A stretch of 64,000 bases of DNA from Solwaraspora sp. WMMD1047 (lineage in GTDB: Bacteria; Actinomycetota; Actinomycetes; Mycobacteriales; Micromonosporaceae). The stretch is taken from NCBI RefSeq assembly GCF_029626155.1, contig NZ_JARUBL010000001.1, positions 1,364,001 through 1,428,000 of the forward strand, given 5' to 3'. Under the pieces are notes generated by a model. The model ran no database searches and was not told the origin of the DNA. It saw nothing but the letters and a program-made list of their open reading frames with translations. Position numbers and translations under genes: made by a program. Shown piece by piece: positions 33,272-56,988 of the stretch. Within the stretch, counting starts at the first letter, position 1. Every line of letters starts with the position of its first letter.

Positions 33272-34510
33272 CTACCGGCCGGCCGGGTGGGCGCTGTGCC
33301 TGGCCGGGCCGCTGTGGGTGGCCGCGGTGAGGACGTGGTCGCTCACCATCCGGGTGGCGCCGATCAGGCCCGCCTGATCCCCCAGCTCGGACAGGACGAT
33401 CGGCAGGTGGCCGGTGGCCAGCGGCAGCGAGGACCGGTAGACCACGCTGCGGATCTCGGCGAGCAGGGAGTGGCCCAGGCCGGCCAGGCCGCCGCCGATG
33501 ACGATCATTCCCGGGTTGAAGAAGCTGACCAGTCGGGCCAGGACCTGCCCCACCCGGCGGCCGCCGTCGCGGACCATGCCGATCGCCGCCTGGTCGCCGG
33601 CCGCCGCGGCGTCGCGCACGTCGACGCCGGTCAGGGCGCCGGCCACCGAGAGCACCTCGGCGAGCTGGTCGGAGCGGCCGGTGCGGGCCGCCGAGACGGC
33701 GTCGCGGGTGAGCGCGGCCCCACCGAAGTACGCCTCCAGACAGCCGACGTTACCGCAGACGCAGACCGGCCCGCTGTCGTCGACGGCGGTGTGGCCGATG
33801 TCGCCGGCGCAGCCGTTCGCCCCGCGGTAGACGTCGCCGCCGACCACGATCCCGGCGCCGATCCCGGCCCCGATCTTGACGAAGAGGAAGTCGTCGAAGG
33901 CCTTGGCGATCCCGGCGTGCTTCTCGCCCAGCGCCATGATGTTGACGTCGTTGTCGACCAGCACCGGGCAGCCCAGTTCGGTGCTGAACATCTCCCGCAC
34001 CGGGAAGAGGTGCCAGCCGGGCATGAACGGCGGTGAGACCGGTACGCCGTCGCGGAAGCTGACCGGACCGGGAATCCCCACCCCGGCGCCGGTGAACCGG
34101 GTGCTGCCCGACTCCGCGCGGAGCTTCGTGATCAGGTCGAGGGCCTGGCCGATGACGGCGTTGGGACCCTGCCGCAGCTCGGTGTGCTCGGTGACCCGGC
34201 CGAGCAGTCGAAGCTCACCGTCGGTGACGGCGACGTCGATCGTGCTGGCGCCGATGTCGATGCTGAGAAACCGGGTGTCGGCCGCGATCCGGACGATCGA
34301 CGAGGGCCGGCCGCCCCGGGAGACCGCCGGACCGACGGTCTCGATCAGCCCTCGCTCGGTGAGCCGATCCAGTTCGGTGGCCACTTTGGAGCGGGAGAGC
34401 CCGACCGCGTCACCGAGTTCGGCCCGGGATCTGGGTCCGTCGTTGCGGAGCAGTCTGAGCACCAGCGCCTGGTGCGGGTTCTCCGGCCAGACTCCTAGCA
34501 CGATGGTCAT
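33272..34510 (-). CDS. ROK-family transcriptional regulator
   Basis: 412 residues. An N-terminal winged helix (RNDGPRSRAELGDAVGLSRSKVATELDRLTERGLI, about 22-58) is followed by the ROK sugar-kinase-like domain with FLSIDIGASTIDVAV (about 82-97), the zinc cluster VCVCGNVGCLEAY (three Cys) and FNPGMIVIGGGL. Such proteins repress or activate sugar operons. It is divergent from a TIM-barrel isomerase-like gene and a sugar transporter. The ATG at 34510 lies very close to AGGGGA; a GTG three codons later is possible. Confidence 0.92.
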   Translation of the reverse strand: MTIVLGVWPENPHQALVLRLLRNDGPRSRAELGDAVGLSRSKVATELDRLTERGLIETVGPAVSRGGRPSSIVRIAADTRFLSIDIGASTIDVAVTDGELRLLGRVTEHTELRQGPNAVIGQALDLITKLRAESGSTRFTGAGVGIPGPVSFRDGVPVSPPFMPGWHLFPVREMFSTELGCPVLVDNDVNIMALGEKHAGIAKAFDDFLFVKIGAGIGAGIVVGGDVYRGANGCAGDIGHTAVDDSGPVCVCGNVGCLEAYFGGAALTRDAVSAARTGRSDQLAEVLSVAGALTGVDVRDAAAAGDQAAIGMVRDGGRRVGQVLARLVSFFNPGMIVIGGGLAGLGHSLLAEIRSVVYRSSLPLATGHLPIVLSELGDQAGLIGATRMVSDHVLTAATHSGPARHSAHPAGR

Positions 34511-34663
34511 CGTCCCCTGACTGAAGCCGGCGCGAGTTCGTCCGACGGGTGGGCCGTGGGCACCCGGGCGGGGGCCGGCGGTGGTGAGGCCGCGGGCACC
34601 GGTCGGGGAACGGCCCGAGGGAGCCGGAGCCACGCGTTGACGCAGAGTAAGCGCCGTGTCAGC

Positions 34664-42028: not shown

Positions 42029-42293
42029 GGCACCACCCAGACTCCTCGGCCCGTGGGCGAGGGTCGATGGCACGGTTGCGCCCCGTGCCGCCGATTCACG
42101 GGACCGAGGTCGGTCGTCCGGCGCGGCCGGACCGGGATTTCCCGGCCGCGCCGGGCGACCAGTAGGCGTGTAGTACCTGGCGGACGTGGCACCGCGCCAG
42201 GGGTGTGGCACCAACCGAAGCTGTCCGTCCAAAGGCCGGATCAGTGCCGACGGTGAGGCTTCACGCCTCCCCGAACCCCCGGAGGAACGACAA

Positions 42294-45200
42294 ATGAAAA
42301 GAACCCAACGACGATGGCTTGCCGTCGTCGCGGGCGCCGCACTCGCCGCTCCCATGATCGCCACGGCCCCGGCCGGGGCCCACGAAGGCCACGAACACGA
42401 AGACGGCTACCAGGTCCTCGTCTTCACCGGCACCGCCGGTGCCGCGCACCCGTCGACCGCCAAGGGCGTGAACGCGATCCGCACCCTCGGCAACAGTAAC
42501 GGGTTCACTGTGGACGTTTCCCGCAACGGTACCGCATTCTCCGACGAGAATCTCGCCAACTACTCAGCGGTCGTCTTCCTCAACAACTCCGGCGACGTCC
42601 TCAACGACCTCCAGCAGGAGGCGTTCGAACGGTACGTCCAGGCCGGACACGGCTACGTCGGACTGCACGGCGCCGCCGGTGCCGAACCCGACTGGGCCTT
42701 CTACCGCGACCTGGTCGGGACCTCGCTGGCCGGCAGCGCGGCCACCGGCACCGGCGTGATCGATGTGCCCGACCGGTACCACCCGTCGACCGAGCCGATC
42801 TCCCGCGAGCTCACCCTCACCGAGTCGTACCCGAACTTCACCAGCAACGTCCGGGGCACCGCGCACGTGCTGGCCACCGTGGACACCCAGTCGGTGACCG
42901 GCTCCACGATGGGCTTCGACCACCCGGTCTCCTGGTGCCGTGACTACCAGGGCGGCCGGTCCTGGTACACCGGCCTGGGGGCCACCCCGGACACCTTCAC
43001 CGTCGGGGCGATCCGCAAGCACCTGCTCGGCGGCATCCAGTGGGCCGCCGGTGTCGCCGAGGGCGACTGCGGCGCGACCGTGCTCGGCAACTACGAGAAG
43101 GTCGTCCTCAACGACCAGCCCGGCGAGCCGATGTCGCTGGCCGTCATGCCCGACGGCCGGGTGCTGCACAACACCCGGGCCGGCGAGATCCGGATGTACG
43201 ACCCGGCCACCGGCGCCAGCCCGGTGATCACCACGGTGCCGGTGTACCAGCACGACGAGGACGGCCTGCAGTCGGTCACCCTCGCCCCGGACTTCGCCGA
43301 GAGCAAGTGGGTCTACCTCTACTACGCGCCGCCGCTGGACACCCCGGTCGACAACCCGGCCACCCCCGGCGTGAACGAGGGCGACGCCCCGCAGAACAGC
43401 GACGACCCAGCGGTCTGGGACGCCTTCAAGGGCTACAACCAGCTCTCCCGGGTCAAGTTCGTCGAGGAGCCGACGCCGCACCTGGACCTCTCCACCGAGC
43501 AGCAGATCCTGCGGGTCGACGTGGACCGGGGCGCCTGCTGCCACGTAGCCGGTGAGGTCAAGTTCGACGGCAAGGGCCTGCTCTACCTGGTCACCGGCGA
43601 CGACACCAACGCCAGCGGCTCGGACAACTTCACCCCGATCAACGAGTCGCCCACCCGGGGTCCGGCGTACGACGCGCAGCGCTCCTCGGGCAACACCAAC
43701 GACCTGCGCGGCAAGGTGCTGCGGATCAAGGTCAAGGAGAACGGCGGCTACAGCATCCCGGCCGGCAACCTCTTCCCCGAGTCGGCCGACCGGGACGACA
43801 AAACCCGCCCGGAGATCTTCCTGATGGGCCTGCGCAACCCGTTCCGGTTCGACGTGGACTCGCGCGGCTGGGTCTACATCGGCGACTACTCGCCGGACTC
43901 GCGGGTGCCGAACCCGGCCCGCGGCCCGGAGGGCACCGGCCGGTGGATCGCCACCAACAAGGCCGGCAACTGGGGCTGGCCGTACTGCTACTCGCCGACC
44001 CTGCCCTACATCGACTGGAACTACGCGACCCAGACCGGCAACGGCCCGTTCAACTGCGCGGCACCGGTCAACGACTCGCCGCGCAACACCGGACTGACGG
44101 TGCTCCCGCCGGTCCAGGACCCGCAGTTCCGCTACACCTACAACGCCACCACCCCGTGCGCGGCGGCCTACCTGGCCACCCCACCCGGAACCTGCAGCTT
44201 CCAGTGGCCGGTCATCGGCACCGGCGGCGTCGGCCCGCACGGCGGTCCGATCTACAAATATGACGAGTCGCTGGAGTCGGAGACCAAGTTCCCCGCCTAC
44301 TACAACGACGCGGTCGTGCTGGGTGAGTTCACCCGGGACAAGATCTTCATGATGCGGACCAACGGCAGCGGCAAGCTGCTCGGGGTCGAGCAGCTGCTGC
44401 CGGGCTTCGTCTTCGACAACCCGATGGACATGGAGTTCGGCCCGGACGGCAGCCTCTACCTGCTGGAGTACGGCGACGGCTTCTTCCGGGCCAACCCGGA
44501 CGCCGCCCTGTCGGTGATCCGGTACGTCAAGGGCACCCGTGGCCCGGTGGCGAACCTGGACGCCACGCCCACCAACGGCACGGCCCCGCTGACCGTGCAG
44601 TTCTCCAGCGAGGGATCCAACTCGCCCGAGCCGGGTGAGACGATCTCGATCGCCTGGGACTTCGACGGTGACGGGACCACCGACTCCACGGAGCCGAACC
44701 CGTCGCACACCTACACCACGAACGGCGTCTACTTCGCCCAGCTCACCGTGACGGACTCCAGTGGCAAGACGGCGACCCTGAGCCGGGCCATCACGGTCGG
44801 CAACACGGCACCGACGGTCGAGGTCACCACCCCGATCTCCGGCTCGTTCTTCAACTGGGGCGACTCGGTGCCGTACACGGTGAATGTGACCGACCCGGAG
44901 GACGGCACCATCGACTGCAGCCGGGTCACCGTCACGTTCGTGCTCGGCCATGACGAGCACGGCCACCCGCAAACCTCCACCACCGGCTGCACCGGCACCC
45001 TGCCGACGCCGCCGGACGGCGCCGACCACGCCGGTGGATACCTGTTCGGTGGGATCAGCGCCAGCTACACCGACCTCGGGGCCAACGGTCAGCCGGCGCT
45101 GACCACGGTCGGCCAGGCGACCATCCAGGTCCCCCGGCAGCAGGCCGAGTTCGCGCAGATCAGGCCGAACGTGACGCTGTCCAACACCGGCGACACCGGC

Positions 45201-45551
45201 GGTGGCCAGCACGTCTCCGGAATCGACAACAACGAGTTCATCGCGTTCGACCCGATCAACCTGGGCGACGCCGACACGGTCACCCTGCGCTACGCCGGCG
45301 GTTCCGCGGCGACCGTGGGCCAGCCGAGGGCGGTCGTCGAGCTGCGGGTCGACGCGCCGGATGGTCCACTGGTGACGGCCAGCTCGGTACCCGCCACGGC
45401 GGGCACCAACGCCTGGGCGAACCACCAGATCGCGGTCGACCACCCGGCCGGTGCGCACCAGCTGTACCTGGTGTTCCGGTCGGTCGACGGCGGTCCGACC
45501 AGCAACCTGTTCAACCTCAACTGGGTCGAGTTCGGCAGCTCGGCCGGCTGA
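42294..45551 (+). CDS. Secreted ThuA-PQQ sugar dehydrogenase-PKD multidomain protein
   Basis: 1085 residues, secreted (signal peptide about 1-27, ending in AGA). Order: ThuA domain (about 35-260, YQVLVFTG...GYVGLHGAAG), a glucose/sorbosone dehydrogenase-like beta-propeller (about 270-750, with GEPMSLAVMPDG, LDTPVDNP, GDDTN, FLMGLRNPFRFDVD), a PKD domain (about 765-845, WDFDGDGTTDSTEPNPSHTY), and a C-terminal carbohydrate-binding-like module (about 940-1085). The enzyme probably oxidises sugars at the cell surface with PQQ; whether PQQ is made here is unknown. The ATG at 42294 is preceded by GGAGG eight bases away. Common in actinomycetes, usually near similar sugar genes. Confidence 0.9.
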   Translation: MKRTQRRWLAVVAGAALAAPMIATAPAGAHEGHEHEDGYQVLVFTGTAGAAHPSTAKGVNAIRTLGNSNGFTVDVSRNGTAFSDENLANYSAVVFLNNSGDVLNDLQQEAFERYVQAGHGYVGLHGAAGAEPDWAFYRDLVGTSLAGSAATGTGVIDVPDRYHPSTEPISRELTLTESYPNFTSNVRGTAHVLATVDTQSVTGSTMGFDHPVSWCRDYQGGRSWYTGLGATPDTFTVGAIRKHLLGGIQWAAGVAEGDCGATVLGNYEKVVLNDQPGEPMSLAVMPDGRVLHNTRAGEIRMYDPATGASPVITTVPVYQHDEDGLQSVTLAPDFAESKWVYLYYAPPLDTPVDNPATPGVNEGDAPQNSDDPAVWDAFKGYNQLSRVKFVEEPTPHLDLSTEQQILRVDVDRGACCHVAGEVKFDGKGLLYLVTGDDTNASGSDNFTPINESPTRGPAYDAQRSSGNTNDLRGKVLRIKVKENGGYSIPAGNLFPESADRDDKTRPEIFLMGLRNPFRFDVDSRGWVYIGDYSPDSRVPNPARGPEGTGRWIATNKAGNWGWPYCYSPTLPYIDWNYATQTGNGPFNCAAPVNDSPRNTGLTVLPPVQDPQFRYTYNATTPCAAAYLATPPGTCSFQWPVIGTGGVGPHGGPIYKYDESLESETKFPAYYNDAVVLGEFTRDKIFMMRTNGSGKLLGVEQLLPGFVFDNPMDMEFGPDGSLYLLEYGDGFFRANPDAALSVIRYVKGTRGPVANLDATPTNGTAPLTVQFSSEGSNSPEPGETISIAWDFDGDGTTDSTEPNPSHTYTTNGVYFAQLTVTDSSGKTATLSRAITVGNTAPTVEVTTPISGSFFNWGDSVPYTVNVTDPEDGTIDCSRVTVTFVLGHDEHGHPQTSTTGCTGTLPTPPDGADHAGGYLFGGISASYTDLGANGQPALTTVGQATIQVPRQQAEFAQIRPNVTLSNTGDTGGGQHVSGIDNNEFIAFDPINLGDADTVTLRYAGGSAATVGQPRAVVELRVDAPDGPLVTASSVPATAGTNAWANHQIAVDHPAGAHQLYLVFRSVDGGPTSNLFNLNWVEFGSSAG

Positions 45552-45858: not shown

Positions 45859-47031
45859 ATGGGTACCGGAGTCTGGCTGATCGGCGCGCGCGGCTCGGTC
45901 GCCGTTACCAGCATCGTCGGGGCACTGGCGGTGCGTTCCGGGCTGGCCCCGCCGACCGGGTGCGTCACCGAACTGCCGCCGTTCCGGGTGCCCGCCGTGC
46001 CGTCGCTGGCCGGACTCGTCTTCGGCGGGCACGACATCGCCCTCACCCCGCTGGCCAAGAAGGCCGACGAACTCGCCGCCGCCGGGGTCCTGCCGGCCCG
46101 GCTGGCCGATGCCCTCCGCACCGAGTTGGCCGCGGTGGAAGCCGAGGTCAGGCAGCTGCCCGAGGGCCCGACCCAGGCCGCCGTCGCGGCCCAGATCGCC
46201 GCCGACCTGACCGCGTTCCGGGACCGGCACGGGCTGGACCGGGTGGTGGTGATCAACGTATCCACCACCGAGCCGGCGCCCGACCCGGACCCGGCACACC
46301 GGGACCTGGCCGCGTTGACCGCCGCGCTCGGCCGGCCCGGCACGGTGCTGCCGCCCAGCGCGCTGGTCGCCTACGCGGCCCTGGACAGCGGCTGCGCGTA
46401 CGTCGACTTCACGCCGTCGACCGGGGCGCGGCTGCCGGCGCTGGCCGAGCTGGCCCGGCTGCGCGCGACGCCCTACGCCGGCCACGACGGCAAGACCGGC
46501 GAGACCCTGGTCAAGGCGGTGCTGGCCCCGATGTTCGCGCAGCGCAACCTGGCGGTGCGGACCTGGTCGGGCACCAACCTGCTCGGCGGCGGCGACGGCG
46601 CCAACCTGGCCGAGCCGGCCGCGAACGCGGCGAAGACCGCCAGTAAGCAGCGGGTCCTCGCCGAGATCCTCGGCTACCAGCCGCAGGGCACCACCCGGAT
46701 CGAGTACGTCGACGACATCGGCGACTTCAAGACCGCCTGGGACCTGATCACCTTCACCGGCTTCCTCGGCACCGGCATGCGGATGGAGTTCACCTGGCAC
46801 GGCTGCGACTCCGCCCTGGCCGCCCCGCTGGTGCTGGACCTGGCCCGGCTGACCGCCGCCGCGCACGCCGCCGGCCGGCACGGCCCCCTGCCCGAGCTGG
46901 CCTTCTTCTTCAAGGACCCGCTCGGTGACGGGCCACACGCCCTGACCGACCAGTGGCACCTGCTCCTCGACTTCGTCCGCAACCTGCCGTCCACCCCGGA
47001 CTCCGCGTCGACCTCGGACGGGAAGTCGTGA
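45859..47031 (+). CDS. Inositol-3-phosphate synthase-like protein, first gene of variant Ebo operon
   Basis: 390 residues, cytosolic. The family normally cyclises glucose-6-phosphate to inositol-3-phosphate with NAD. It begins with the Rossmann stretch GVWLIGARGSVAVTSIVGALA (about 4-24) and contains VINVSTTEP, PYAGHDGKTGETLVKAVLAPMF (catalytic lysine region), WSGTNLLGGGDGANL, and FTWHGCDSALAAPLVLDL. GGAGG precedes ATG 45859. The stop overlaps the next start as TGATG. It may make a cyclitol other than inositol; the neighbours suggest a prenylated or lipid-linked product. Confidence 0.87.
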   Translation: MGTGVWLIGARGSVAVTSIVGALAVRSGLAPPTGCVTELPPFRVPAVPSLAGLVFGGHDIALTPLAKKADELAAAGVLPARLADALRTELAAVEAEVRQLPEGPTQAAVAAQIAADLTAFRDRHGLDRVVVINVSTTEPAPDPDPAHRDLAALTAALGRPGTVLPPSALVAYAALDSGCAYVDFTPSTGARLPALAELARLRATPYAGHDGKTGETLVKAVLAPMFAQRNLAVRTWSGTNLLGGGDGANLAEPAANAAKTASKQRVLAEILGYQPQGTTRIEYVDDIGDFKTAWDLITFTGFLGTGMRMEFTWHGCDSALAAPLVLDLARLTAAAHAAGRHGPLPELAFFFKDPLGDGPHALTDQWHLLLDFVRNLPSTPDSASTSDGKS

Positions 47032-47651
47032 TGGACCCCGGCGCCGACCCGGCCGGCACCGCCGAGCTGCGGGCCGCGCTGGCGCGCGTACCCGATGGGG
47101 GTTGGCTGGCGGGGGCGGTGCGGCGCGTCGCGGCCGACCCGGCCGCGGTGGCGCGCTGCTTTCCGGCCGCCGGCCGGCGCTGCGGGCGGGACCCGCTGCC
47201 CGGCCTGCCGGACTGGTCGGCCGACCAGGGGGCGCGGGCGCTGCTGCTGGCCGCCCTGCCGGCCGACGGCCTGGCCGACCGGGTGGCCGAGGTCTACCGG
47301 TGGGGAGACGCGGCCGAGAAACTGGCGGTGTTGAAGGCGCTGCCGATCCTGCCGCTCGGCGCGGCCGGGGTCGGGCTGCTCGCCGACGCCATCCGCAGCA
47401 ACGATCCGCGGCTGGTGGCGGCGGCACTCGGGCCGTACGCCCGCCACCTCGATCAGGCGATGTGGCGGCAGGCCGTGCTCAAGTGCGTATTCATGGGCGT
47501 ACCACTCGCGGCCGTCGATGGGCTGGACGATCGGGCCGACGCCGAACTGGGCAGGATGTTGGCGGGCCTGGCGGCGGAACGGACCGCGGCCGGGCGGGAC
47601 ATGCCGGCGGACGCGACCGCGCTGCTGAGCCGGCTGGAAGGGGAGGCGTGA
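47031..47651 (+). CDS. EboA-domain protein
   Basis: 206 residues, cytosolic, helical and HEAT-like. The part YRWGDAAEKLAVLKALPILPLGAAGVGLLADAIRSNDPRLVAAALGPYARHLDQAMWRQAVLKCVFMGVPL matches the core of EboA proteins, found in the ebo metabolite-export operon of cyanobacteria and other bacteria. No catalytic motif is apparent. It overlaps both neighbours by one base (TGATG). Confidence 0.75.
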   Translation: MDPGADPAGTAELRAALARVPDGGWLAGAVRRVAADPAAVARCFPAAGRRCGRDPLPGLPDWSADQGARALLLAALPADGLADRVAEVYRWGDAAEKLAVLKALPILPLGAAGVGLLADAIRSNDPRLVAAALGPYARHLDQAMWRQAVLKCVFMGVPLAAVDGLDDRADAELGRMLAGLAAERTAAGRDMPADATALLSRLEGEA

Positions 47652-48529
47652 TGCGGATCTTCGACCCGCACATCCACATGTCGTCGCGGACCACCGACGA
47701 CTACGAGCGGATGGTGGCCGCCGGGGTACGGGCGGTGGTGGAGCCGGCGTTCTGGCTCGGCCAGCCCCGGACCTCGGTCGGCTCGTTCGTGGACTACTTC
47801 GACTCGCTGGTGGGGTGGGAGCCGTTCCGGGCCTCCCAGTTCGGGGTCCGGCACTTCGCGACGGTGGCCCTCAACCCGAAGGAGGCCAACGACCCGCGCT
47901 GCCGCGAGGTGGTCGGCGACGTGGTGCCGCGCTTCCTCGACAAGGACAGCGTGGTGGCGGTCGGCGAGGTCGGCTACGACTCGATGACCCCGGCCGAGGA
48001 CGAGGTCTTCGCCGAACAGCTGGCACTGGCGGTGGAGTACGAGCTGCCGGCGCTGGTGCACACCCCGCACCGGGACAAGGTACGCGGGGTGCAGCGGAGC
48101 CTGGCGGTGGTGGCCGAGTCCGGCCTGCCGCCCGGTCGGGTGGTGGTCGACCACCTGAACGAGGTGACCGTCGGGCTGGTCCGCGACACCGGCTGCTGGC
48201 TCGGGTTCTCGATCTACCCGGAGACCAAGATGTCACCGGCCCGGATGGTCGAGATCCTGCGGTCGTCCGGGGTGGAGCGGGTGCTGGTGAACTCGGCGGC
48301 GGACTGGGGGCGCTCCGATCCGCTGCTGACCCGCGCCACCGGCGAGGCGATGCTCGCGGCGGGCTTCAGCACCGACCAGGTGGACCAGGTGCTCTGGCGC
48401 AACCCGGTCGAGTTCTACGCCCAGTCCGGCCGGTTCGACCCGGCCGACCTCGACGCCCCCGCCGACCCGGCCGGCGAGCCGCCGGACAGCACGTACGCCG
48501 GCAGTTCGATCGCCCGCGGGGGTGCGTGA
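47651..48529 (+). CDS. TatD-like metal-dependent hydrolase (EboB-like)
   Basis: 292 residues, cytosolic amidohydrolase fold. Metal ligands: HIH (7-9), Glu in AVGEVGYD, His in LVHTPH, His in VVDHLNE, Asp in NSAADWG. TatD proteins are nucleases or phosphodiesterases; EboB relatives act on unknown metabolites. It is joined to both neighbours by TGATG overlaps, so it must be made in fixed proportion with EboA and the phosphodiesterase. Confidence 0.88.
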   Translation: MRIFDPHIHMSSRTTDDYERMVAAGVRAVVEPAFWLGQPRTSVGSFVDYFDSLVGWEPFRASQFGVRHFATVALNPKEANDPRCREVVGDVVPRFLDKDSVVAVGEVGYDSMTPAEDEVFAEQLALAVEYELPALVHTPHRDKVRGVQRSLAVVAESGLPPGRVVVDHLNEVTVGLVRDTGCWLGFSIYPETKMSPARMVEILRSSGVERVLVNSAADWGRSDPLLTRATGEAMLAAGFSTDQVDQVLWRNPVEFYAQSGRFDPADLDAPADPAGEPPDSTYAGSSIARGGA

Positions 48530-49923
48530 TGGCGCCGCTGCTGGTGCTGGACGTGGTCGGGCTGACCCCCCGGCTACTGGCCCACATGCCCCGGCTGCGG
48601 GCGGTCGCCGAGACCGGTTTCCAGGCCGAGCTGGGCACCGTGCTGCCCGCCGTGACCTGCTCGGCGCAGTCCACCTTCCTCACCGGCGAGCCGCCGGCCG
48701 GGCACGGCATCGTCGGCAACGGCTGGTACTTCCGCGAGCTCGGTGAGGTCTTCCTCTGGCGGCAGCACAACGCCCTGGTGGGCGGGGAGAAGCTGTGGCA
48801 GGCGGCCCGCCGGGTCCGCCCCGACTACACCGTCGCCAACGTCTGCTGGTGGTACGCCATGGGCGCCGACGTGAACTGGACCGTCACGCCGCGCCCGATC
48901 TACTTCGCCGACGGTCGCAAGGAACCGGACTGCTACACCGACCCGCCCGAGCTGCGTGACGAGCTGACCGCGAAGCTCGGCACCTTCCCGCTCTTCACCT
49001 ACTGGGGGCCGGGCGCCGGGCTGCCCTCGTCGGCCTGGATCTGCCGGGCCACCACCGAGATCATGACCAGCCACCGGCCGGACCTCACCCTGTCCTACCT
49101 GCCGCACCTCGACTACGACCTGCAGCGCTTCGGGCCGTCGTCGCCGCAGGCCGCCGCCGCTGCCGCCGACCTCGACGGGGTGCTCGGGCCGCTGCTGGAC
49201 GCCGCCGCGGCCCAGGACACCACCGTGGTCGCGCTCTCCGAGTACGGCATCACCGACGCCTCCCGGCCGGTGGACATCAACCGGCTGCTGCGCTCGGAGG
49301 GCCTGCTGCGGGTCTACACCCAGGCCGGCATGGAATACCTCGACCCGTGGACGTCGCGGGCGTTCGCGGTCGCCGACCACCAGGTCGCGCACGTCTACGT
49401 CCGCGACCCGGCCGACGTGCCGGCGGTGGCCCGGCTCTGCGCCGGCCTGCCCGGGGTGGCCGAGGTGCTCGACGAGGCCGGCAAGGCCGCCGCCGGGCTG
49501 GACCACCCGCGCTCCGGCGAGCTGGTGCTGGTCGCCGAGCCGGACGCCTGGTTCACCTACTACTACTGGCTCGACGACGCGGCGGCCCCGGACTTCGCCC
49601 GGCTGGTGGAGATCCACCGCAAGCCCGGCTACGACCCGGCCGAGCTCTTCTTCGACCCGGCCAACCCGGGCGCGGCGAAGCGGCGGGCGGCGGTGGCGCT
49701 GGCCCGCAAGAAGACCGGGATGCGCTACCTGATGAGCGTGGTCGGGCTGGACGCCGGCGCGCGGGCGGTCCGCGGCTCGCACGGCCGGCTGCCGGCCGAC
49801 CCGGCCGACGGGCCGGTGCTGCTCTGCTCCCGGCCGGCCGCCGCCCGGGACCGGCTCGCCGCCACCGAGGTGAAGGGGCTGCTGCTGGAGCTCGCCGGCC
49901 TCACCGCGGCGGCACCGTCATGA
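48529..49923 (+). CDS. Alkaline-phosphatase-superfamily phosphodiesterase (EboF-like)
   Basis: 464 residues. The NPP-like pattern is PLLVLDVVGL (metal Asp8), PAVTCSAQSTFLTG (nucleophile Thr43), YLPHLDYDLQRFG (Asp/His ligands) and LSEYGIT, where typical NPPs have SDHGM. The Asp-to-Glu, His-to-Tyr change at that site suggests altered metal binding; the family call remains good. Nucleotide-pyrophosphatase-like proteins occur as EboF. It has no signal peptide. Start overlaps the TatD stop (TGATG), and its own stop overlaps the prenyl synthase start (ATGA). Confidence 0.85.
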   Translation: MAPLLVLDVVGLTPRLLAHMPRLRAVAETGFQAELGTVLPAVTCSAQSTFLTGEPPAGHGIVGNGWYFRELGEVFLWRQHNALVGGEKLWQAARRVRPDYTVANVCWWYAMGADVNWTVTPRPIYFADGRKEPDCYTDPPELRDELTAKLGTFPLFTYWGPGAGLPSSAWICRATTEIMTSHRPDLTLSYLPHLDYDLQRFGPSSPQAAAAAADLDGVLGPLLDAAAAQDTTVVALSEYGITDASRPVDINRLLRSEGLLRVYTQAGMEYLDPWTSRAFAVADHQVAHVYVRDPADVPAVARLCAGLPGVAEVLDEAGKAAAGLDHPRSGELVLVAEPDAWFTYYYWLDDAAAPDFARLVEIHRKPGYDPAELFFDPANPGAAKRRAAVALARKKTGMRYLMSVVGLDAGARAVRGSHGRLPADPADGPVLLCSRPAAARDRLAATEVKGLLLELAGLTAAAPS

Positions 49924-50996
49924 CGCTGGCCGCCGCCCGGCCGGACGCCGCCGGCACCGGCTCGCTGCGGGAGCGCTGCGACGCCGAACTGGCCGCCTTC
50001 CTCGACCGGCAGGATCCGCACTGGCCGGACGGCGCGCCGCGCGGCGTCTTCGACCGGCTGCGCCGGTTCGTGCTGGCCGGTGGGAAGCGGTTGCGGCCGA
50101 CGTTCTGTTACTGGGGTTGGCGGGGGGCCGGTGGTCCGGACTGTCGGGAGATCGTGGCCGCGGCGGCGGCGTTGGAGATTTTCCACGCGTTCGCGTTGAT
50201 TCACGACGACATCATGGACGGTAGTGATCAGCGGCGGGGCGAGCCGTCGGTGCACCGGTTCTTCACGGATCTGCATGCCCGGTCGGCGTGGCGGGGGGAC
50301 GCGGGTCGGTACGGGCACAACGCGGCGTTGCTCTGCGGTGACCTCTGCGCCGCCTGGGCCGACCAGATGTTCCACGAGTCGGGGCTGCCCGCCGAGCAGA
50401 TCCGCCGCGGCTACGCCGTGTTCGCGGCGATGCGCACCGAAGTCATCGCCGGCCAGTACCTGGATCTGGTCTCCGGGGTAGGTGACGGTTCGGTTGCCAG
50501 TGCGTTGACGGTGATCCGGATGAAGGCCGCCCGGTATACGGTGACCCGGCCGCTGCAGATCGGGGCGGCGTTGGTGGGGGCGGGCGAGGAGGTCCGGGCG
50601 GGATATGCCGCGTTCGGTGATCCGTTGGGGGACGCGTTCCAGCTGCGCGACGACGTGCTCGGCGTGTTCGGGGACCCGGCCGTGACCGGCAAGTCGGTCC
50701 TGGACGATCTGCGGGAAGGCAAGTCGACGGTGATGATGGCGCTCGCCCGCGACCAGGCCGACCGGGAACAGGCCCGCCGGCTGCGGGAGCTGGTCGGTGA
50801 CCCCGAGGTCGACCTGGCGGGCGCCGAGGAGCTGCGCTCCATCATCGTCGCCACCGGTGCCCTCGACGCGATCGAACAGATGATTCGGCTGCGTACCCAG
50901 GCGGCGGTGGCGGCCCTGGCCGACGCGCCGCTCACCGACGAGGCCCGGCGGGAGCTGACCACGCTCGCCGAATCCGTGGCCGAGCGGCAGAGCTGA
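49920..50996 (+). CDS. Polyprenyl diphosphate synthase
   Basis: 358 residues, cytosolic. It joins isopentenyl diphosphate to allylic diphosphates. First Asp-rich motif DDIMD (96-100), second DDVLGVFGD (244-252), GGKRLRP (54-60) and LIHDDIMDGSDQRRGEP. An aromatic Phe lies five residues before the first motif, which often favours short C15-C20 products, but chain length needs testing. Codon use in 50040-50330 and 50480-50640 is richer in third-position T and TTG than the rest of the gene, a mosaic pattern. It may supply the prenyl chain for a cyclitol-linked lipid. Confidence 0.9.
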   Translation: MTLAAARPDAAGTGSLRERCDAELAAFLDRQDPHWPDGAPRGVFDRLRRFVLAGGKRLRPTFCYWGWRGAGGPDCREIVAAAAALEIFHAFALIHDDIMDGSDQRRGEPSVHRFFTDLHARSAWRGDAGRYGHNAALLCGDLCAAWADQMFHESGLPAEQIRRGYAVFAAMRTEVIAGQYLDLVSGVGDGSVASALTVIRMKAARYTVTRPLQIGAALVGAGEEVRAGYAAFGDPLGDAFQLRDDVLGVFGDPAVTGKSVLDDLREGKSTVMMALARDQADREQARRLRELVGDPEVDLAGAEELRSIIVATGALDAIEQMIRLRTQAAVAALADAPLTDEARRELTTLAESVAERQS

Positions 50997-51019: not shown

Positions 51020-52258
51020 GTGGCTATCCGAGACCTGGGCACGCCGGACACCGGTGCCCCGACCAGCGCCGGCCGCGCCCCCGCCCCGGCCGGGGTCGGC
51101 GGGCGACCGCTGCGGATCGCGATGATCGGGCAGAAGGGCATGCCCGCGACGTACGGCGGGATCGAGCGGCACGTCGAGGAGCTGGCCAGCCGGTTGGCCG
51201 GCCGCGGCCACGAGGTGACCGTCTACTGCCGGGAAAGCTACGGTTCGGTCCCGCTGGACGCCTACCGGGGGGTGCGACTGCGCCAGGTGCGCACCATCGC
51301 CAGCAAGCACCTCGACGCGATCGTGCACTCCAGCACCTCGACGCTCGCCGCGCTGCGGGACCGGCCGGACATCGTGCACTACCACGGACTCGGGCCGGGT
51401 CTGGTCGCCCCGCTGCCCCGCTACCTGGCCAGATCGAAGGTGGTGCTGACCGTGCACGGGCTGGACCACCAGCGGGCCAAGTGGGGCCGGGCGGCGCGGG
51501 CCGTGCTGGAGACCGCGCACTGGTTCAGCGGCCACGTCCCGGACGCCCGGGTCGCGGTCTCCCGGGCACTGGCCGCGCACTACCAGACCCGGTTCGGCAC
51601 CGAGGCCCGCTACATCCCGAACGGGGTCGCCGCGCCCCGGCAGCTGCCGGCCCGGCAGATCCGCTCCCGGTTCGGCCTGGCCCCCGGCGGCTACCTGCTG
51701 ATGGTCGGCCGGTTGGTGCCGGAGAAGTCGGCGGACCTGATGATCCGGGCGTTCCGCCGGGTGCGGACCGGGCTGCGGCTGGTGATCGTGGGCGGGTCGT
51801 CGTTCAGCGACGACTTCGTGGCCCGGGTCCGCGCCGAGGCCGCCGACGACCCGCGGGTCGTGCTCACCGGCTTCGCGTACGGGGACCTGCTGGCCGAGCT
51901 GTACTCCAACGCGGCCGGCTTCGTGCAGCCGTCCCGGCTGGAAGGGTTGCCGCTGACCCTGCTGGAGGCGGCCTCGTACGGGCTGCCGGTGGTGGCCAGC
52001 GACATCTCCCCGCACCTGGAGGTGCTGGTGGCCGACGCGCCCGGCCGGCGGCTGTTCCGCGACGGCGACGCCGACGACCTGGTCCGGGCGGTGACCCGGC
52101 TGGTCGCCGACCCGGCGGGGGAGCGGACCGGCGCCGCCGTGCTGCGCGACCGGGTCGCCGACGAGTACACCTGGGAGGTGGCCACCGGCGAGCTGGAGCG
52201 GCTCTACCGGGACCTGCTGCGCCCCCGCCGGTGGGGCCGGACGCGACCGGTCGGGTGA
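51020..52258 (+). CDS. GT4 glycosyltransferase of the exopolysaccharide cluster
   Basis: 412 residues, GT-B fold retaining transferase. LRIAMIGQKGMPATYGGIERHVEELASRLAGRGHEV is the N-terminal donor-side start; VGRLVPEKSADLMIRAF and PSRLEGLPLTLLEAASYGLPVVASD carry the EX7E-type C-terminal motif (Glu in RLEGLP and LLEA). GTG 51020 is chosen because AAGGAGG lies just before; a TTG 15 bases earlier is less likely. It begins 24 bases after the prenyl synthase, so it may be cotranscribed. Confidence 0.9.
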   Translation: MAIRDLGTPDTGAPTSAGRAPAPAGVGGRPLRIAMIGQKGMPATYGGIERHVEELASRLAGRGHEVTVYCRESYGSVPLDAYRGVRLRQVRTIASKHLDAIVHSSTSTLAALRDRPDIVHYHGLGPGLVAPLPRYLARSKVVLTVHGLDHQRAKWGRAARAVLETAHWFSGHVPDARVAVSRALAAHYQTRFGTEARYIPNGVAAPRQLPARQIRSRFGLAPGGYLLMVGRLVPEKSADLMIRAFRRVRTGLRLVIVGGSSFSDDFVARVRAEAADDPRVVLTGFAYGDLLAELYSNAAGFVQPSRLEGLPLTLLEAASYGLPVVASDISPHLEVLVADAPGRRLFRDGDADDLVRAVTRLVADPAGERTGAAVLRDRVADEYTWEVATGELERLYRDLLRPRRWGRTRPVG

Positions 52259-52352
52259 TGGCGCGGCCCGCCGGTTTGCCCCATACTTCCCGCGTCAAGG
52301 CCGGGTACGCAGCGCCGGCGGGCGGGCGAACAGGACGGCGGGTCGGCGTTCG

Positions 52353-53786
52353 GTGACAACAGTGGTACGGCACGTCCGCAACGCGGGCGGGACGCGGGGC
52401 GGTGCGCTGTTGACCGCCCTGGCCGCGCTGGCCGCGGCCGGGGTCGCCGTACTGGCCGGGCTGTCGCTGGCCGCCGGTGACCGCCGGGGTGTGGTGCTGC
52501 CGCTGGCGGCGGCGGCCGGGCTGGCGGTGGCGGCGCTGGCGGTCACCCGGTTCGCCGGGTACGTGCTGCTGATCCTCGCGATCCGCCCGCTCGTCGACCT
52601 GGTCAAGCTCAGCGGCCCGACGGCCGGCCGGACCGGGGTCGACCCGGCGGCCCGGTTCACCGACCCGTCCACCCTGCTCGCGGTGCTCTTCCTGCTCACC
52701 GCCGGGCTCTGGCTGGCCGCCCAGGTCAGCCGGCACGGCCGGCTGCGCGGCTCCCCGCTGGGCTGGGCGATGCTGCTGGTCGGCGCGACCGGCCTGATCA
52801 GCGCGCTCGGCGCCGACCGGCCGACGCCGAGCCTGCTGGAGGCGCTGCGGATCCTCACCGTGGTGGTGATGTTCGTGGTGCTGGAGCAGCTGCTGCCGGA
52901 CCGGGCCGCGCTGCGCCGGGTGCTGCTGGCCTGCTACGCGTCGCTGGCGCTGGCGCTGGGCTACACCGTGCTGGCGTCCGTGGCCGGGGCGGTCCCGTCC
53001 GAGGTGAAAGGGGAGTTCGTCCGGATCAGCGGGCCGTTCACCCAGTCCACCACCTTCGGCCGCTACCTGATGTTCATGGTGATCTTCGGGTTCGGCATCT
53101 ACCGGTTCCTCGGGCCGCGCTGGAGGGTGGCGTTGGCGGTCCTGCTCGCCGGATCGCTGGGCTTCCTGCTGACCACCAACACCCGGTCGGCGATCCTCGG
53201 CGCCGCGATCGGGCTGGTCGTGGTGGCGCTGCTGCACCGCAGCGGCCGGCTGCTCGCCGTGCTGCTGGTGGTCGCGGTGGCCGGGGTGGCGCTGCTGCCG
53301 GCGGTCGGCGACCGGTTCGCCCAGCTCGCCGACTCCCGGCCGGTCGGCGGCGGCCCGACCGGCAACACGCTGGCCTGGCGGGTCGGCTACTGGACCGAGA
53401 TCGTCGGGTTGGCCAACCGGAACCCGGTCACCGGGATCGGCCCGAACATGACCCAGCACCAGACCGCCGAGGCGAAGAAGCCGCACAACGACGTGCTCCG
53501 GGCGTACGTGGAGACCGGTGTGGTCGGGCTGCTGGCGTACCTGGTGATGGTTTTTCTGCTGTTGCACACCGCGCGGCTGGCGCTGCGCCGGGCGCCGCCG
53601 GGCAGCCTGGAGCGGGGGATCGCGGTGGGTTTCGCCGGCTGCGCGGTGGCGTTCGTCGCGGTCAGCCTCGCCTCGAACGTGATCTCGAACGTGGTCACCC
53701 TCTGGTACTTCGTCGCGTTCGCGGCGGCCGCCGGCGCCGTCGCGCGGCGCCCCGTGCACACTGACCAGGTCGTTGAGAAGGTATGA
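52353..53786 (+). CDS. O-antigen-ligase/polymerase-like membrane protein
   Basis: 477 residues with about 12 membrane spans and a large outer loop. The Wzy_C motif region reads NRNPVTGIGPNMTQHQ...AEAKKPHNDVLRAYVETGVVGLLAYL (about 350-390), with the conserved His-Asn. Such proteins polymerise repeat units or ligate them to a lipid carrier outside the membrane. Starts at GTG; its stop overlaps the next ATG as ATGA. Confidence 0.88.
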   Translation: MTTVVRHVRNAGGTRGGALLTALAALAAAGVAVLAGLSLAAGDRRGVVLPLAAAAGLAVAALAVTRFAGYVLLILAIRPLVDLVKLSGPTAGRTGVDPAARFTDPSTLLAVLFLLTAGLWLAAQVSRHGRLRGSPLGWAMLLVGATGLISALGADRPTPSLLEALRILTVVVMFVVLEQLLPDRAALRRVLLACYASLALALGYTVLASVAGAVPSEVKGEFVRISGPFTQSTTFGRYLMFMVIFGFGIYRFLGPRWRVALAVLLAGSLGFLLTTNTRSAILGAAIGLVVVALLHRSGRLLAVLLVVAVAGVALLPAVGDRFAQLADSRPVGGGPTGNTLAWRVGYWTEIVGLANRNPVTGIGPNMTQHQTAEAKKPHNDVLRAYVETGVVGLLAYLVMVFLLLHTARLALRRAPPGSLERGIAVGFAGCAVAFVAVSLASNVISNVVTLWYFVAFAAAAGAVARRPVHTDQVVEKV

Positions 53787-54988
53787 GTAGGAGCCCGAGC
53801 GTGGAGATCGTCGACTACCTGCGGATCGCCCGCCGCCGGCTGTGGATCCTGCTGGGGGTGCCGGTGCTGGCCGCCGGTGCCGCGGCCGGGGTGGTGCTGC
53901 TCGCCCCGCAGCAGTACACCGGCACCGCGTACGTGGCGGCGCCGGCCCTGGTCGGCGGGGCCGCCGCCCAGCAGTACACCGGCACCCAGGCCGCCGCCCA
54001 GTTCGTGGCCGCGTTCGGCGCGGCGGCCACCTCGCCCCGGGTGCTGGACGAGGTGGCCGCCGACACCGGCGTGCGGGTGTCCCGGCTGCGCGACGGGCTG
54101 GCGGTGCGCCAGGTCGGCGCGAGCAGCCAGCTGGAGCTGAGCTACACGGCGTCGGCGCGCGGCACGGTGCGCCCGGTGCTGGAGGCGACCAGCGGCCGGG
54201 CGCTGGCGTTCCTCTTCTCGTCCCAGGTGGACATCGCCACCGAGCAGGTGAGCGCCGCCAGCGACGACGTGACGGCGGCGACCGCGGCGATCACCGCCTG
54301 GGAGAAGGAGAACAAGGTCTCCCAGCCGGACAAGCTCTACCAGGCCACCCTCAACGAGTTGGCAAGTCTGCGCCAGCAGCGGCTGTCGATGCAGGCGGTC
54401 GGCAACAGCCGGGGCGCGAACGCCGCCGCGGAGGCGATCGAGGCCGGTCAGCGGCAGCTCGACACGATCGGCCCGAAGCTGCCGGACTACCAGGCGCTGC
54501 TCGCCCAGCGGGACGCCGCCACCGCCGCGATGTCGCAGGCCCGGCAGGAGCTGCAGGCGGCCCGCGCGCAGACCCGGGCGGCCGATCCGGCGTCGGTGAC
54601 GAGCGTCGGCCAGGTGACCGCGGTGTCCCGGCTCCGGGAGCTGGTCGCCACCGCGCTGCCGGTGGCCGGCGCCGGACTGCTGCTCGCCGTCGCGCTGGTG
54701 GCGATCCTGGAACTGCTGGCCCGCGGCCGGGCCCGCGAGCCGGTCGCCCGGCCCGGCCCGTCCGGCGACCCGCGCCCCGAACCGACCGAAACCATCGGGT
54801 ACGCCCACCGCGACGCGACCGCCCAACACGGCGCGGGAGGTGAGCGCGGTTCGGGGGAGCGCAGTTCGGTTGGTCAGCACAATTCGGTTGGTCAGCACAG
54901 CGCGGTCCAGCACGAGGCGGTCGGGCCGAACGGTGGGTCAGGCCGGCGCTCGGATCTGGCGGGCCTGCCCGGCCGGTCGGTGACGTGA
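53783..54988 (+). CDS. Wzz-like chain-length determinant/polysaccharide co-polymerase
   Basis: 401 residues. Two membrane helices (about 20-40 and 290-310) flank a large coiled-coil external domain (about 45-285), the Wzz topology. No Walker kinase follows: the C-terminal 90 residues are a polar low-complexity tail (QHNSVGQHSAVQHEA). It thus resembles Wzz or CapA-type regulators without the tyrosine-kinase part. Coupled to ligase and flippase by four-base overlaps. Confidence 0.85.
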   Translation: MSRSPSVEIVDYLRIARRRLWILLGVPVLAAGAAAGVVLLAPQQYTGTAYVAAPALVGGAAAQQYTGTQAAAQFVAAFGAAATSPRVLDEVAADTGVRVSRLRDGLAVRQVGASSQLELSYTASARGTVRPVLEATSGRALAFLFSSQVDIATEQVSAASDDVTAATAAITAWEKENKVSQPDKLYQATLNELASLRQQRLSMQAVGNSRGANAAAEAIEAGQRQLDTIGPKLPDYQALLAQRDAATAAMSQARQELQAARAQTRAADPASVTSVGQVTAVSRLRELVATALPVAGAGLLLAVALVAILELLARGRAREPVARPGPSGDPRPEPTETIGYAHRDATAQHGAGGERGSGERSSVGQHNSVGQHSAVQHEAVGPNGGSGRRSDLAGLPGRSVT

Positions 54989-56988
54989 CGGCGGAGTCCA
55001 CCCGTCCCGACCCGGCTGCCGTCGGCCCGGCTGCTGTCGGCCCGCCCGCCGTCGACCCGGCCGGCGCTGGTTCGGAGTCCGACGGCGCGGACCGCAGTGT
55101 TCGGGGGATGGCCCGGGGTGGAGGGCTCAACCTGGTCGGGGCGATCCTCAACCAGGCCGCCGTCTTCGTCATCATGCTGCTGCTGGCCCGGGTGCTCGGC
55201 ATCACCGAGGTCGGCCGGTACGCCCAGTGCTACGCCGTGCTGGCCCTGCTCGGCCTGCTGTCGCTCTCCGGCTTCCGGGCCGGGCTGACCCGGTTCGTGG
55301 CGACCGGCCTGGCCGACGACGACCCGGCCGCGGTCCGCGGCACGGTCCGGCTCGGGCTGGCCATCTCGGCCGCCTCGGCCAGCGCCGTCGCGGTCGTGCT
55401 GGCGCTTGCCGCACCGGCGCTGGCCGGCCTGCTCAACGACCCGGAACTCGTCACCGGGCTGCGGCTGGTCGCGCTCACCCTGCCCGCGTTGACGGTCTGC
55501 GAGGCGGCGTTGGCGGCCACCCGGGGCTGGCGCACCCAGCGGCCGTTCACCCTGATCGGCCAGCTATACGAGCCGGGCGCCCGACTGGCGCTCACCGCGC
55601 TGGCGCTGGTGGCCGGCGCCGGCCTGACCGGCACCTTCTGGGCGCTGGTCGGCGCGGCCTGGACGGCGGCGCTGCTCGCGCTCGGGGCGCTGGCCCGGCT
55701 GCTGCGCCGGGTGCCGGCGGACCGGGTGGTCTACCGGCCCCGGGAACTGTTCAGCTTCTCCACGGTGAGCTGGTTCTCCTCGCTGGCGTCGACCGGGCTG
55801 ATCTGGGTGGACACCCTGATGCTCGGCGCCTTCGGCAACCCCGACATCGGCCTCTACAACGTGGCCACCCGGCTGGTCACCGTGGCCATCTTCGTGCTGG
55901 CGCCGATCAACGCGGCGTTCGGCCCGTACCTCGCGCACCTGCACCACCAGGGCCGCGCCGACGAGGTACGCCGCATCTACGGCGCCGCCACCGGCTGGGT
56001 GGTCCGGCTGTCCCTGCCGGCCTTCGTGGCGCTGCTGGTTTTCCCCGAGGCGCTGCTGCGGCTCTTCGGCGGAGCGTTCGCCGCCGGCGCGGCGGTGACG
56101 GTGATCCTGGCGCTCGGGCAGTTGGTGAACGCGGCCACCGGCCCGTGTGGCACGGTGCTGAACATGTCCGGCCGGGTCGGGCTGAACATGGCCGACAACA
56201 TCGCGGCGCTGCTGCTGAACGTGCTGCTGAACCTCTGGCTGATTCCGGCGTACGGCATCATCGGCGCGGCGGTGGCCTGGGCGGTGTCGCTGGCCGTGGT
56301 GAACGTGGCCCGGGTGCTGCAGGTCCGGGCGGTGACCGGCGCGCTGCCGGTGACCGCCGGGATGCTCAAGGGGCTGCTGGCCGGGCTGGTCGCGCTGCTG
56401 GCCGGCGTGGTGGTGCGGCTGCTGGTGCCCGGCTGGCCGGCGCAGCTGGCGGTCGGCCTGCCGGTGGTGGCGGCCGGCTACCTGACGGCGGTGCTCGCCC
56501 TCGGGCTGAGCCGGGAGGACACCATGGTGCTGCGCACCCTGGCCCGCCGCGGCCGAACCACACCCAGTCCCGCCGACCCGGCCGCGGCCGGCGCCGACGC
56601 GGCCGGCGGGGCTGGCGCGGCGCGCAGAGCTGGCGCGGCCGGCGGAGTTGGTGCCGCCGGCGCGGCTGGCCGTGGTGGCGTGGTCGAGGCCTCTGGCGGC
56701 GACGCGGCTGGCGCGGCCGGCGGAGTTGGTGCCGCCGGCGCGGCTGGCCGTGGTGGCGTGGTCGAGGCCTCTGGCGGCGACGCGGCTGGCGCGGCCGGCG
56801 GAGTTGGTGCCGCCGGCGCGGCTGGCCGTGGTGGCGTGGTCGAGGCCTCTGGCGGCGACGCGGCTGGTGCGGCGGGCGGGGCAGCCGCCGATGCGGGGGC
56901 CGGGGTCGGTGGTGGCGTGGTCGAGGGCGCGGGCGGCGATGCGGTTGGCGGGGCGGGTCGGCGGGCGGCTGAGGGGGCGGCGCGGTGA
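54985..56988 (+). CDS. Polysaccharide flippase (Wzx/MATE-like) with repeat tail
   Basis: 667 residues. The N-terminal 35 residues are Pro/Ala-rich, then about 12-14 membrane spans (about 40-515; GGGLNLVGAILNQAAVFVIMLLLARVLG, TGLIWVDTLMLGAFGNPDIGLYNVATRLV). It should flip lipid-linked sugars outward. From about residue 535 the tail consists of Ala/Gly-rich 26-residue repeats of unknown role. GTG start overlaps the Wzz stop. Confidence 0.87.
   Translation: MTAESTRPDPAAVGPAAVGPPAVDPAGAGSESDGADRSVRGMARGGGLNLVGAILNQAAVFVIMLLLARVLGITEVGRYAQCYAVLALLGLLSLSGFRAGLTRFVATGLADDDPAAVRGTVRLGLAISAASASAVAVVLALAAPALAGLLNDPELVTGLRLVALTLPALTVCEAALAATRGWRTQRPFTLIGQLYEPGARLALTALALVAGAGLTGTFWALVGAAWTAALLALGALARLLRRVPADRVVYRPRELFSFSTVSWFSSLASTGLIWVDTLMLGAFGNPDIGLYNVATRLVTVAIFVLAPINAAFGPYLAHLHHQGRADEVRRIYGAATGWVVRLSLPAFVALLVFPEALLRLFGGAFAAGAAVTVILALGQLVNAATGPCGTVLNMSGRVGLNMADNIAALLLNVLLNLWLIPAYGIIGAAVAWAVSLAVVNVARVLQVRAVTGALPVTAGMLKGLLAGLVALLAGVVVRLLVPGWPAQLAVGLPVVAAGYLTAVLALGLSREDTMVLRTLARRGRTTPSPADPAAAGADAAGGAGAARRAGAAGGVGAAGAAGRGGVVEASGGDAAGAAGGVGAAGAAGRGGVVEASGGDAAGAAGGVGAAGAAGRGGVVEASGGDAAGAAGGAAADAGAGVGGGVVEGAGGDAVGGAGRRAAEGAAR
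56641..56874 (+). repeat. Three perfect-register 78-bp coding repeats
   Basis: Copies start at 56641, 56719 and 56797 and encode a 26-residue unit opening GGVGAAGAAGRGGVVEASGG. A degenerate fourth copy follows from 56875. They lie in the C-terminal tail of the flippase and should be prone to copy-number change. Confidence 0.9.

Follow-up and report, generated by a model that had tools for sequence, protein, structure and literature searches.

The ebo operon (eboABCDEF) has been described in Bacteroidetes, Cyanobacteria and eustigmatophyte plastids, and an isoprenoid-cyclitol product has been proposed for it (PMC5133447). In Nostoc, the ebo cluster is required for the export of a scytonemin precursor; it was suggested to contribute a lipid carrier connected to capsule export, with EboA as a protein that holds partners together (PMC6282210). 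Ubi-297/EboC, the UbiA prenyltransferase of the ebo cluster of Maribacter, farnesylates quinoline-type aromatics in vitro (PMC9235831), and both physically separated single ebo genes (in Arenibacter and Adhaeribacter) and EboA-TIM hybrids (in Actinobacteria) have been mentioned (PMC5133447). A further point of comparison is the SCO3242/SCO3243 pair in the CDA cluster region of S. coelicolor, of which SCO3243 is annotated as a myo-inositol phosphate synthase (PMC3610822). In open-access papers, we found no description of an ebo operon with an Ino1-type cyclase, nor of one split into complementary halves: "inositol" is absent from the main text of both main ebo papers (PMC5133447, PMC6282210), and a search for the SCO3242 family or an Ino1-type ebo operon returned transcript tables only.

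The window (the whole 64,000-nucleotide stretch analyzed here, from Solwaraspora sp. WMMD1047) contains five overlapping genes at positions 45859 to 50996, and the coordinates and protein families assigned to them in the original prediction were borne out by profile matches (Table 1). Single-base overlaps (TGATG) form the INO/EboA, EboA/EboB and EboB/EboF junctions, and a 4-base overlap (ATGA) joins EboF to PPS1. Taken over the whole genome, the system has much in common with the described ebo operon: an EboA domain, a TatD-like EboB, EboE, a PF01663-type EboF, a UbiA enzyme, a sugar-phosphate cyclase function and coupled genes. It differs in that the cyclase belongs to the Ino1 family rather than being EboD, in that the UbiA enzyme is an SCO3242-family protein that falls short of the EboC cut-off (127.7 bits against 250), in the presence of an extra TIM barrel (TIM1) and a polyprenyl diphosphate synthase (PPS), and in the distribution of its genes over two loci, whereas the SCO3242/SCO3243 pair, whose first member gave its name to the NCBIfam family that includes the UbiA enzyme found here, occupies a single locus in S. 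coelicolor. Like Ubi-297/EboC of Maribacter, this enzyme is an ebo-cluster UbiA prenyltransferase, but it is of the SCO3242 family.

Table 1. Features of the two ebo loci and their flanks. Plain positions are those of the window; L098 is the region around the second locus, numbered in reverse complement coordinates.
Feature	Location	Strand	Remarks
Type I upstream flank: ThuA/glucose-sorbosone dehydrogenase/PKD/CBM6 protein	42186..45551	+	PF06283, PF07995, PF18911, PF03422; start codon uncertain
INO: Ino1-like (myo-inositol-1-phosphate synthase family) synthase, 390 aa	45859..47031	+	PF07994/PF01658
TGATG junction INO/EboA	47029..47033	+	site of UbiA and TIM barrel 1 in relatives
EboA-domain protein, 206 aa	47031..47651	+	NF035938
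EboB: TatD-like metal-dependent hydrolase, 292 aa	47651..48529	+	PF01026
TGATG junction EboB/EboF	48527..48531	+	site of eboE in relatives
EboF: alkaline-phosphatase-superfamily phosphodiesterase, 464 aa	48529..49923	+	PF01663
PPS1: short-chain polyprenyl diphosphate synthase, 358 aa	49920..50996	+	PF00348; DDIMD and DDVLG motifs
Gene-conversion tract in PPS1, 305 bp	50059..50363	+	one mismatch to PPS2
Type I downstream flank: GT4 glycosyltransferase	51020..52258	+	
Type I downstream flank: Wzy_C O-antigen-ligase-like protein	52353..53786	+	starts Wzy/Wzz/flippase exopolysaccharide cluster
ROK	L098 5835-7013		
UbiA	L098 7235-8119		NCBIfam SCO3242 family, 379 bits (cut-off, 260)
TIM1	L098 8116-8997		PF01261; weak similarity to epimerases and IolE
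EboE	L098 9074-10276; profile match at C1:5565667-5566827		NF035939, 405.6 bits (cut-off, 250)
PPS2	L098 10279-11343		
ThuAII: ThuA/3-keto-disaccharide-hydrolase protein	L098 11349-12683		

The identity of the 206-residue protein as EboA, on which the original prediction hinged, is supported by a match of 164.1 bits to the EboA-domain model NF035938 (cut-off, 50 bits); the full-length EboA family model NF035937 yielded 82 bits against a cut-off of 320. EboA occurs once in the genome, and its AlphaFold2 model (pLDDT of 90.7) predicts an all-helical, repeat-like fold, which, when compared with the folds in the PDB, had no significant match and resembled helical-repeat proteins only. EboB scored 45.1 bits with PF01026 (cut-off, 27), an assignment to fold class only, and an EboB-specific model did not match this TatD-like protein, while the 212.9 bits of EboF with PF01663 (cut-off, 23) do not separate it from other lineages of that family. 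As predicted, a prenyl synthase is encoded locally, by the last gene of the operon: PPS1 matches PF00348 at 160 bits and carries both aspartate-rich motifs, and its best match, which stays below the cut-off, is a mycobacterial farnesyl/geranyl diphosphate synthase.

Among 396 genomes sampled from the phylum, 18 carry EboA. Within the family, EboA was found in 208 of the 301 genomes searched and in 23 of 44 genera. In stretches of up to 20 kb fetched around 63 other actinobacterial EboA loci, the order INO-UbiA-TIM1-EboA-EboB-EboE-EboF, often followed by a PPS gene, was present at 57; at the remaining six, EboA stood by itself, the contig ended or one or two of the genes went undetected. EboD was not among the genes of these 57 loci, in which an Ino1-type enzyme takes its position, in line with the suggestion that the inositol synthase would fill the cyclase role; the one strong dehydroquinate-synthase-type (PF01761) gene of the present genome lies 1.5 Mb from the window and is presumably aroB. 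Since the full INO-containing order is so common, the replacement of EboD by Ino1 is the normal actinobacterial form, and what sets this genome apart is therefore not its cyclase but the lack of UbiA, TIM1 and EboE from the operon. The five-gene arrangement proposed as a shared variant was seen at no other locus read, the relatives having seven or eight genes. Junctions in six intact operons were mostly stop/start overlaps or spacings of a few bases, so that whole genes could probably be lost cleanly, leaving the coupling unbroken.

That EboC and EboE would be lacking, as originally predicted, is true of the window but not of the genome. A UbiA enzyme, a second TIM barrel and a full-length EboE, which are exactly the genes absent from the window operon, are found together with a second PPS gene at 5564 to 5569 kb of the same 8.14-Mb contig (G000:C1), 4.15 Mb from the window locus. 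The ebo-type INO and EboE are each present in single copy, and all seven core genes are kept once in the genome, in complementary blocks at the two loci, an arrangement that we saw in this genome only among the loci read. Both blocks are well preserved: of the columns conserved across 97% or more of the relatives, the window proteins retain 83/83 (INO), 22/22 (EboA), 112/115 (EboB), 148/148 (EboF) and 93/95 (PPS1), and those of the second locus retain 49/49 (UbiA), 60/60 (TIM1), 80/80 (EboE) and 93/93 (PPS2).

On the basis of gene content, synteny, trees, a conversion tract and residue conservation, we propose, with a probability of roughly 0.7, that two complete operons underwent reciprocal gene loss and that two transcription units now serve one pathway. 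The ancestors of this strain would have held two paralogous operons, a native type I operon beside an exopolysaccharide cluster and a type II operon, with a ROK gene upstream and a ThuA protein gene downstream, which was probably acquired or is an old duplicate. Locus I would have lost UbiA, TIM1 and EboE, and locus II would have lost INO, EboA, EboB and EboF, with PPS kept at both, such that the remnants INO-EboA-EboB-EboF-PPS1 and UbiA-TIM1-EboE-PPS2 would add up to one complete pathway, with the two half-operons acting jointly in one genome and gene conversion still linking PPS1 and PPS2. The retention of duplicate genes by complementary loss is known as subfunctionalization; complementary retention after duplication is common to both situations, but the units here are whole genes of one operon, divided between two operons. 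We lean, with somewhat less assurance, toward the fuller statement that an operon was duplicated and shared out gene by gene, leaving one pathway on two coupled operons that lie across the chromosome from each other, with their synteny still intact, and that conversion has kept alike in part, and that it represents an undescribed, Ino1-based form of ebo.

It could be argued that the five-gene operon is instead a self-sufficient variant pathway, with the distant UbiA-TIM1-EboE cluster devoted to a different product. Indeed, both loci are intact, coupled operons, each with its own PPS, and subsets of the genes can persist: in genus g2, four loci at the type II site (L151, L152, L153 and L154, in genomes G645, G677, G665 and G509) keep only EboA-EboB-PPS, and in these genomes a close INO and an SCO3242-family UbiA are absent and a strong EboE was not found, which suggests that EboA and EboB may do something alone. 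However, in this genome the seven core genes are held exactly once in complementary blocks, whereas relatives hold all of them in one operon, and these four were the only EboA carriers found without a strong EboE among the 208 in the 301 family genomes. Additionally, TIM1 and EboA, whose genes lie on different sides of the split, are fused in one continuous frame at 8 of 60 loci (L072, L086, L096, L101, L102, L110, L113 and L114), which argues that both halves belong to one process. We therefore regard two independent pathways as unlikely.

Reciprocal loss presupposes two distinct operon lineages, and these can be recognized by their flanks. Six loci (L078, L082, L088, L094, L106 and L117), designated type I, share with the window a ThuA/glucose-sorbosone dehydrogenase protein upstream and a GT4 glycosyltransferase and Wzy-like ligase downstream. 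At type II loci (L024, L025, L066, L077 and others), ROK lies a few kilobases upstream (scored where the fetched stretch extends far enough) and ThuAII downstream, as at L098; compared with complete type II loci, the ROK and ThuAII flanks of the second locus are 87 to 97% and 73 to 82% identical, respectively. In trees, INO, EboF and PPS1 of the window group with type I (EboF as sister to the type I clade), and EboE of L098 falls within type II (support of 95), with UbiA and TIM1 placed among type II sequences at weaker support; PPS2, stripped of its converted tract, forms a long, unplaced branch. By rpoB, the closest sister of the genome is genus g269, the carrier of type I; as the rpoB trees mixed strands, with wrong-strand rows forming an artificial half of their own and a spurious 5-unit branch, only the neighborhood of the query within one strand was used. 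Window EboA and EboB were not placed with type I and may thus be type II in origin or fast evolving; type I placement was not rejected (AU test, P values of 0.32 and 0.40), and a mosaic operon with EboA and EboB clearly of type II was hence discarded as unsupported.

The same evidence bears on the idea that there was one operon only, from which a rearrangement carried off UbiA, TIM1 and EboE, and for which the separated single ebo genes of Arenibacter and Adhaeribacter (PMC5133447) provide a precedent. In the intact operon, however, these genes are not contiguous, with UbiA-TIM1 and EboE flanking EboA-EboB, so that at least two moves to one place, in the right order, would be needed; moreover, the second locus sits in type II synteny, with type II sequences and a PPS gene of its own. 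A possible trace of EboB is also found where a former complete operon would be expected to have left it. A 25-codon frame between TIM1 and EboE at L098, MRIPHRRPTFEVTTIEPDTTPQGDA, resembles both ends of EboB (MRIFDPH... and ...PTFEGNSI). In an end-anchored test, 42 of 2,000 shuffles at the protein level and 1 of 1,000 at the DNA level scored as well, and a local alignment to the joined EboB ends was weak (235 of 5,000 shuffles as good), such that the frame is suggestive, at most, of an EboB relic. Upstream of UbiA at this locus, no INO relic was seen. Altogether, we consider rearrangement quite improbable.

Reciprocal loss would have left the two loci with one gene in common, PPS, and it is here that they still appear to communicate. 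PPS1 and PPS2 differ by one mismatch within a 305-bp tract and are only about 78% identical on either side of it, which shows recent gene conversion between the loci. Such a near-identical stretch also raises the question of whether a collapsed or chimeric assembly of two similar operons, with the assembler crossing over in this tract, could have created the split. We judge this to be very improbable: both loci lie deep within one 8.14-Mb contig, their flanks match the synteny of types I and II, the gene joins are exact gene-boundary overlaps outside the shared sequence, and, PPS aside, DNA similarity between the loci was found only in flanking genes, at 68 to 75%. A ROK-family regulator gene on the minus strand of the window (33272 to 34633) resembles the ROK gene of the second locus, with about 75% DNA identity across 720 bases.

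INO itself is a convincing member of the Ino1 family, with 158 bits for PF07994 and 107 bits for PF01658, and the five-membered-cyclitol-phosphate synthase of PDB entry 6k96 illustrates that cyclitol synthases of this family also occur outside inositol metabolism. The solved structure nearest to INO, the myo-inositol-phosphate synthase of A. fulgidus (1u1i; E value of 3.5e-70), aligns over the length of INO. Lysines K274, K278, K306 and K367 of 1u1i, which we take to be the catalytic ones, are all aligned to lysines in INO; this numbering follows the printed alignment, and the deposited chain 3qvx has an alanine at K367. A role in primary metabolism, with INO supplying the inositol phosphate needed to make mycothiol or phosphatidylinositol, the remaining genes being incidental, draws on these lysines but was rejected as scarcely credible, since INO shares its operon with ebo genes at 57 of the 57 full-order loci and a separate Ino1-like gene exists, and since INO reaches only 25.5 of the 638 bits required by the mycothiol-type Ino1 model. 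This second gene, at G000:C1:7993079-7993672 (7.99 Mb), is weakly related to INO and may serve ordinary inositol or mycothiol metabolism.

Given one pathway encoded by two half-operons, its chemistry can be sketched from the protein families, each step being conditional on them. The Ino1-like enzyme would form a cyclitol phosphate by cyclizing a sugar phosphate, EboF may remove or transfer a phosphate, and TIM1 and EboE would isomerize or dehydrate the ring; the fold class of these xylose-isomerase-like barrels includes inosose dehydratase. The UbiA enzyme would then prenylate the ring with a short chain provided by PPS, assisted by EboB and by the putatively helical-repeat EboA, which may hold partners together as proposed for EboA of Nostoc (PMC6282210). 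The product may be a prenylated cyclitol or else an aromatic derived from one; because Ubi-297, itself an ebo UbiA, farnesylates aromatics (PMC9235831), a dehydrated and aromatized ring is an equally open acceptor. That the product is a lipid is conjecture, but the position of the type I operon, abutting a GT4/Wzy/Wzz/flippase cluster, fits the proposal of a lipid carrier for capsule export. If correct, the Ino1-based form, with EboA present in 208 of 301 family genomes, would provide another entry enzyme, and one open to assay, for the widespread ebo genes. The split found in nature would moreover yield two genetically separable modules, such that single deletions at two unlinked loci could test for a common product, and it would represent a case of reciprocal gene loss at the level of operons, accompanied by a recent conversion tract.

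Several smaller observations were made along the way. Alignment of the regions preceding the two half-operons was of low quality and did not establish a common promoter motif. Two extra EboA genes (L103 and L104), with no other ebo gene within 20 kb, were found in genome G455, which also has a complete operon. Immediately following the type I operon, the exopolysaccharide cluster (GT4, Wzy-like ligase, Wzz and flippase) spans window positions 51020 to 56988. Finally, many ebo loci, several distant loci among them, have as neighbors ThuA-family proteins that carry dehydrogenase, keto-disaccharide-hydrolase or carbohydrate-binding domains and may be functional partners.
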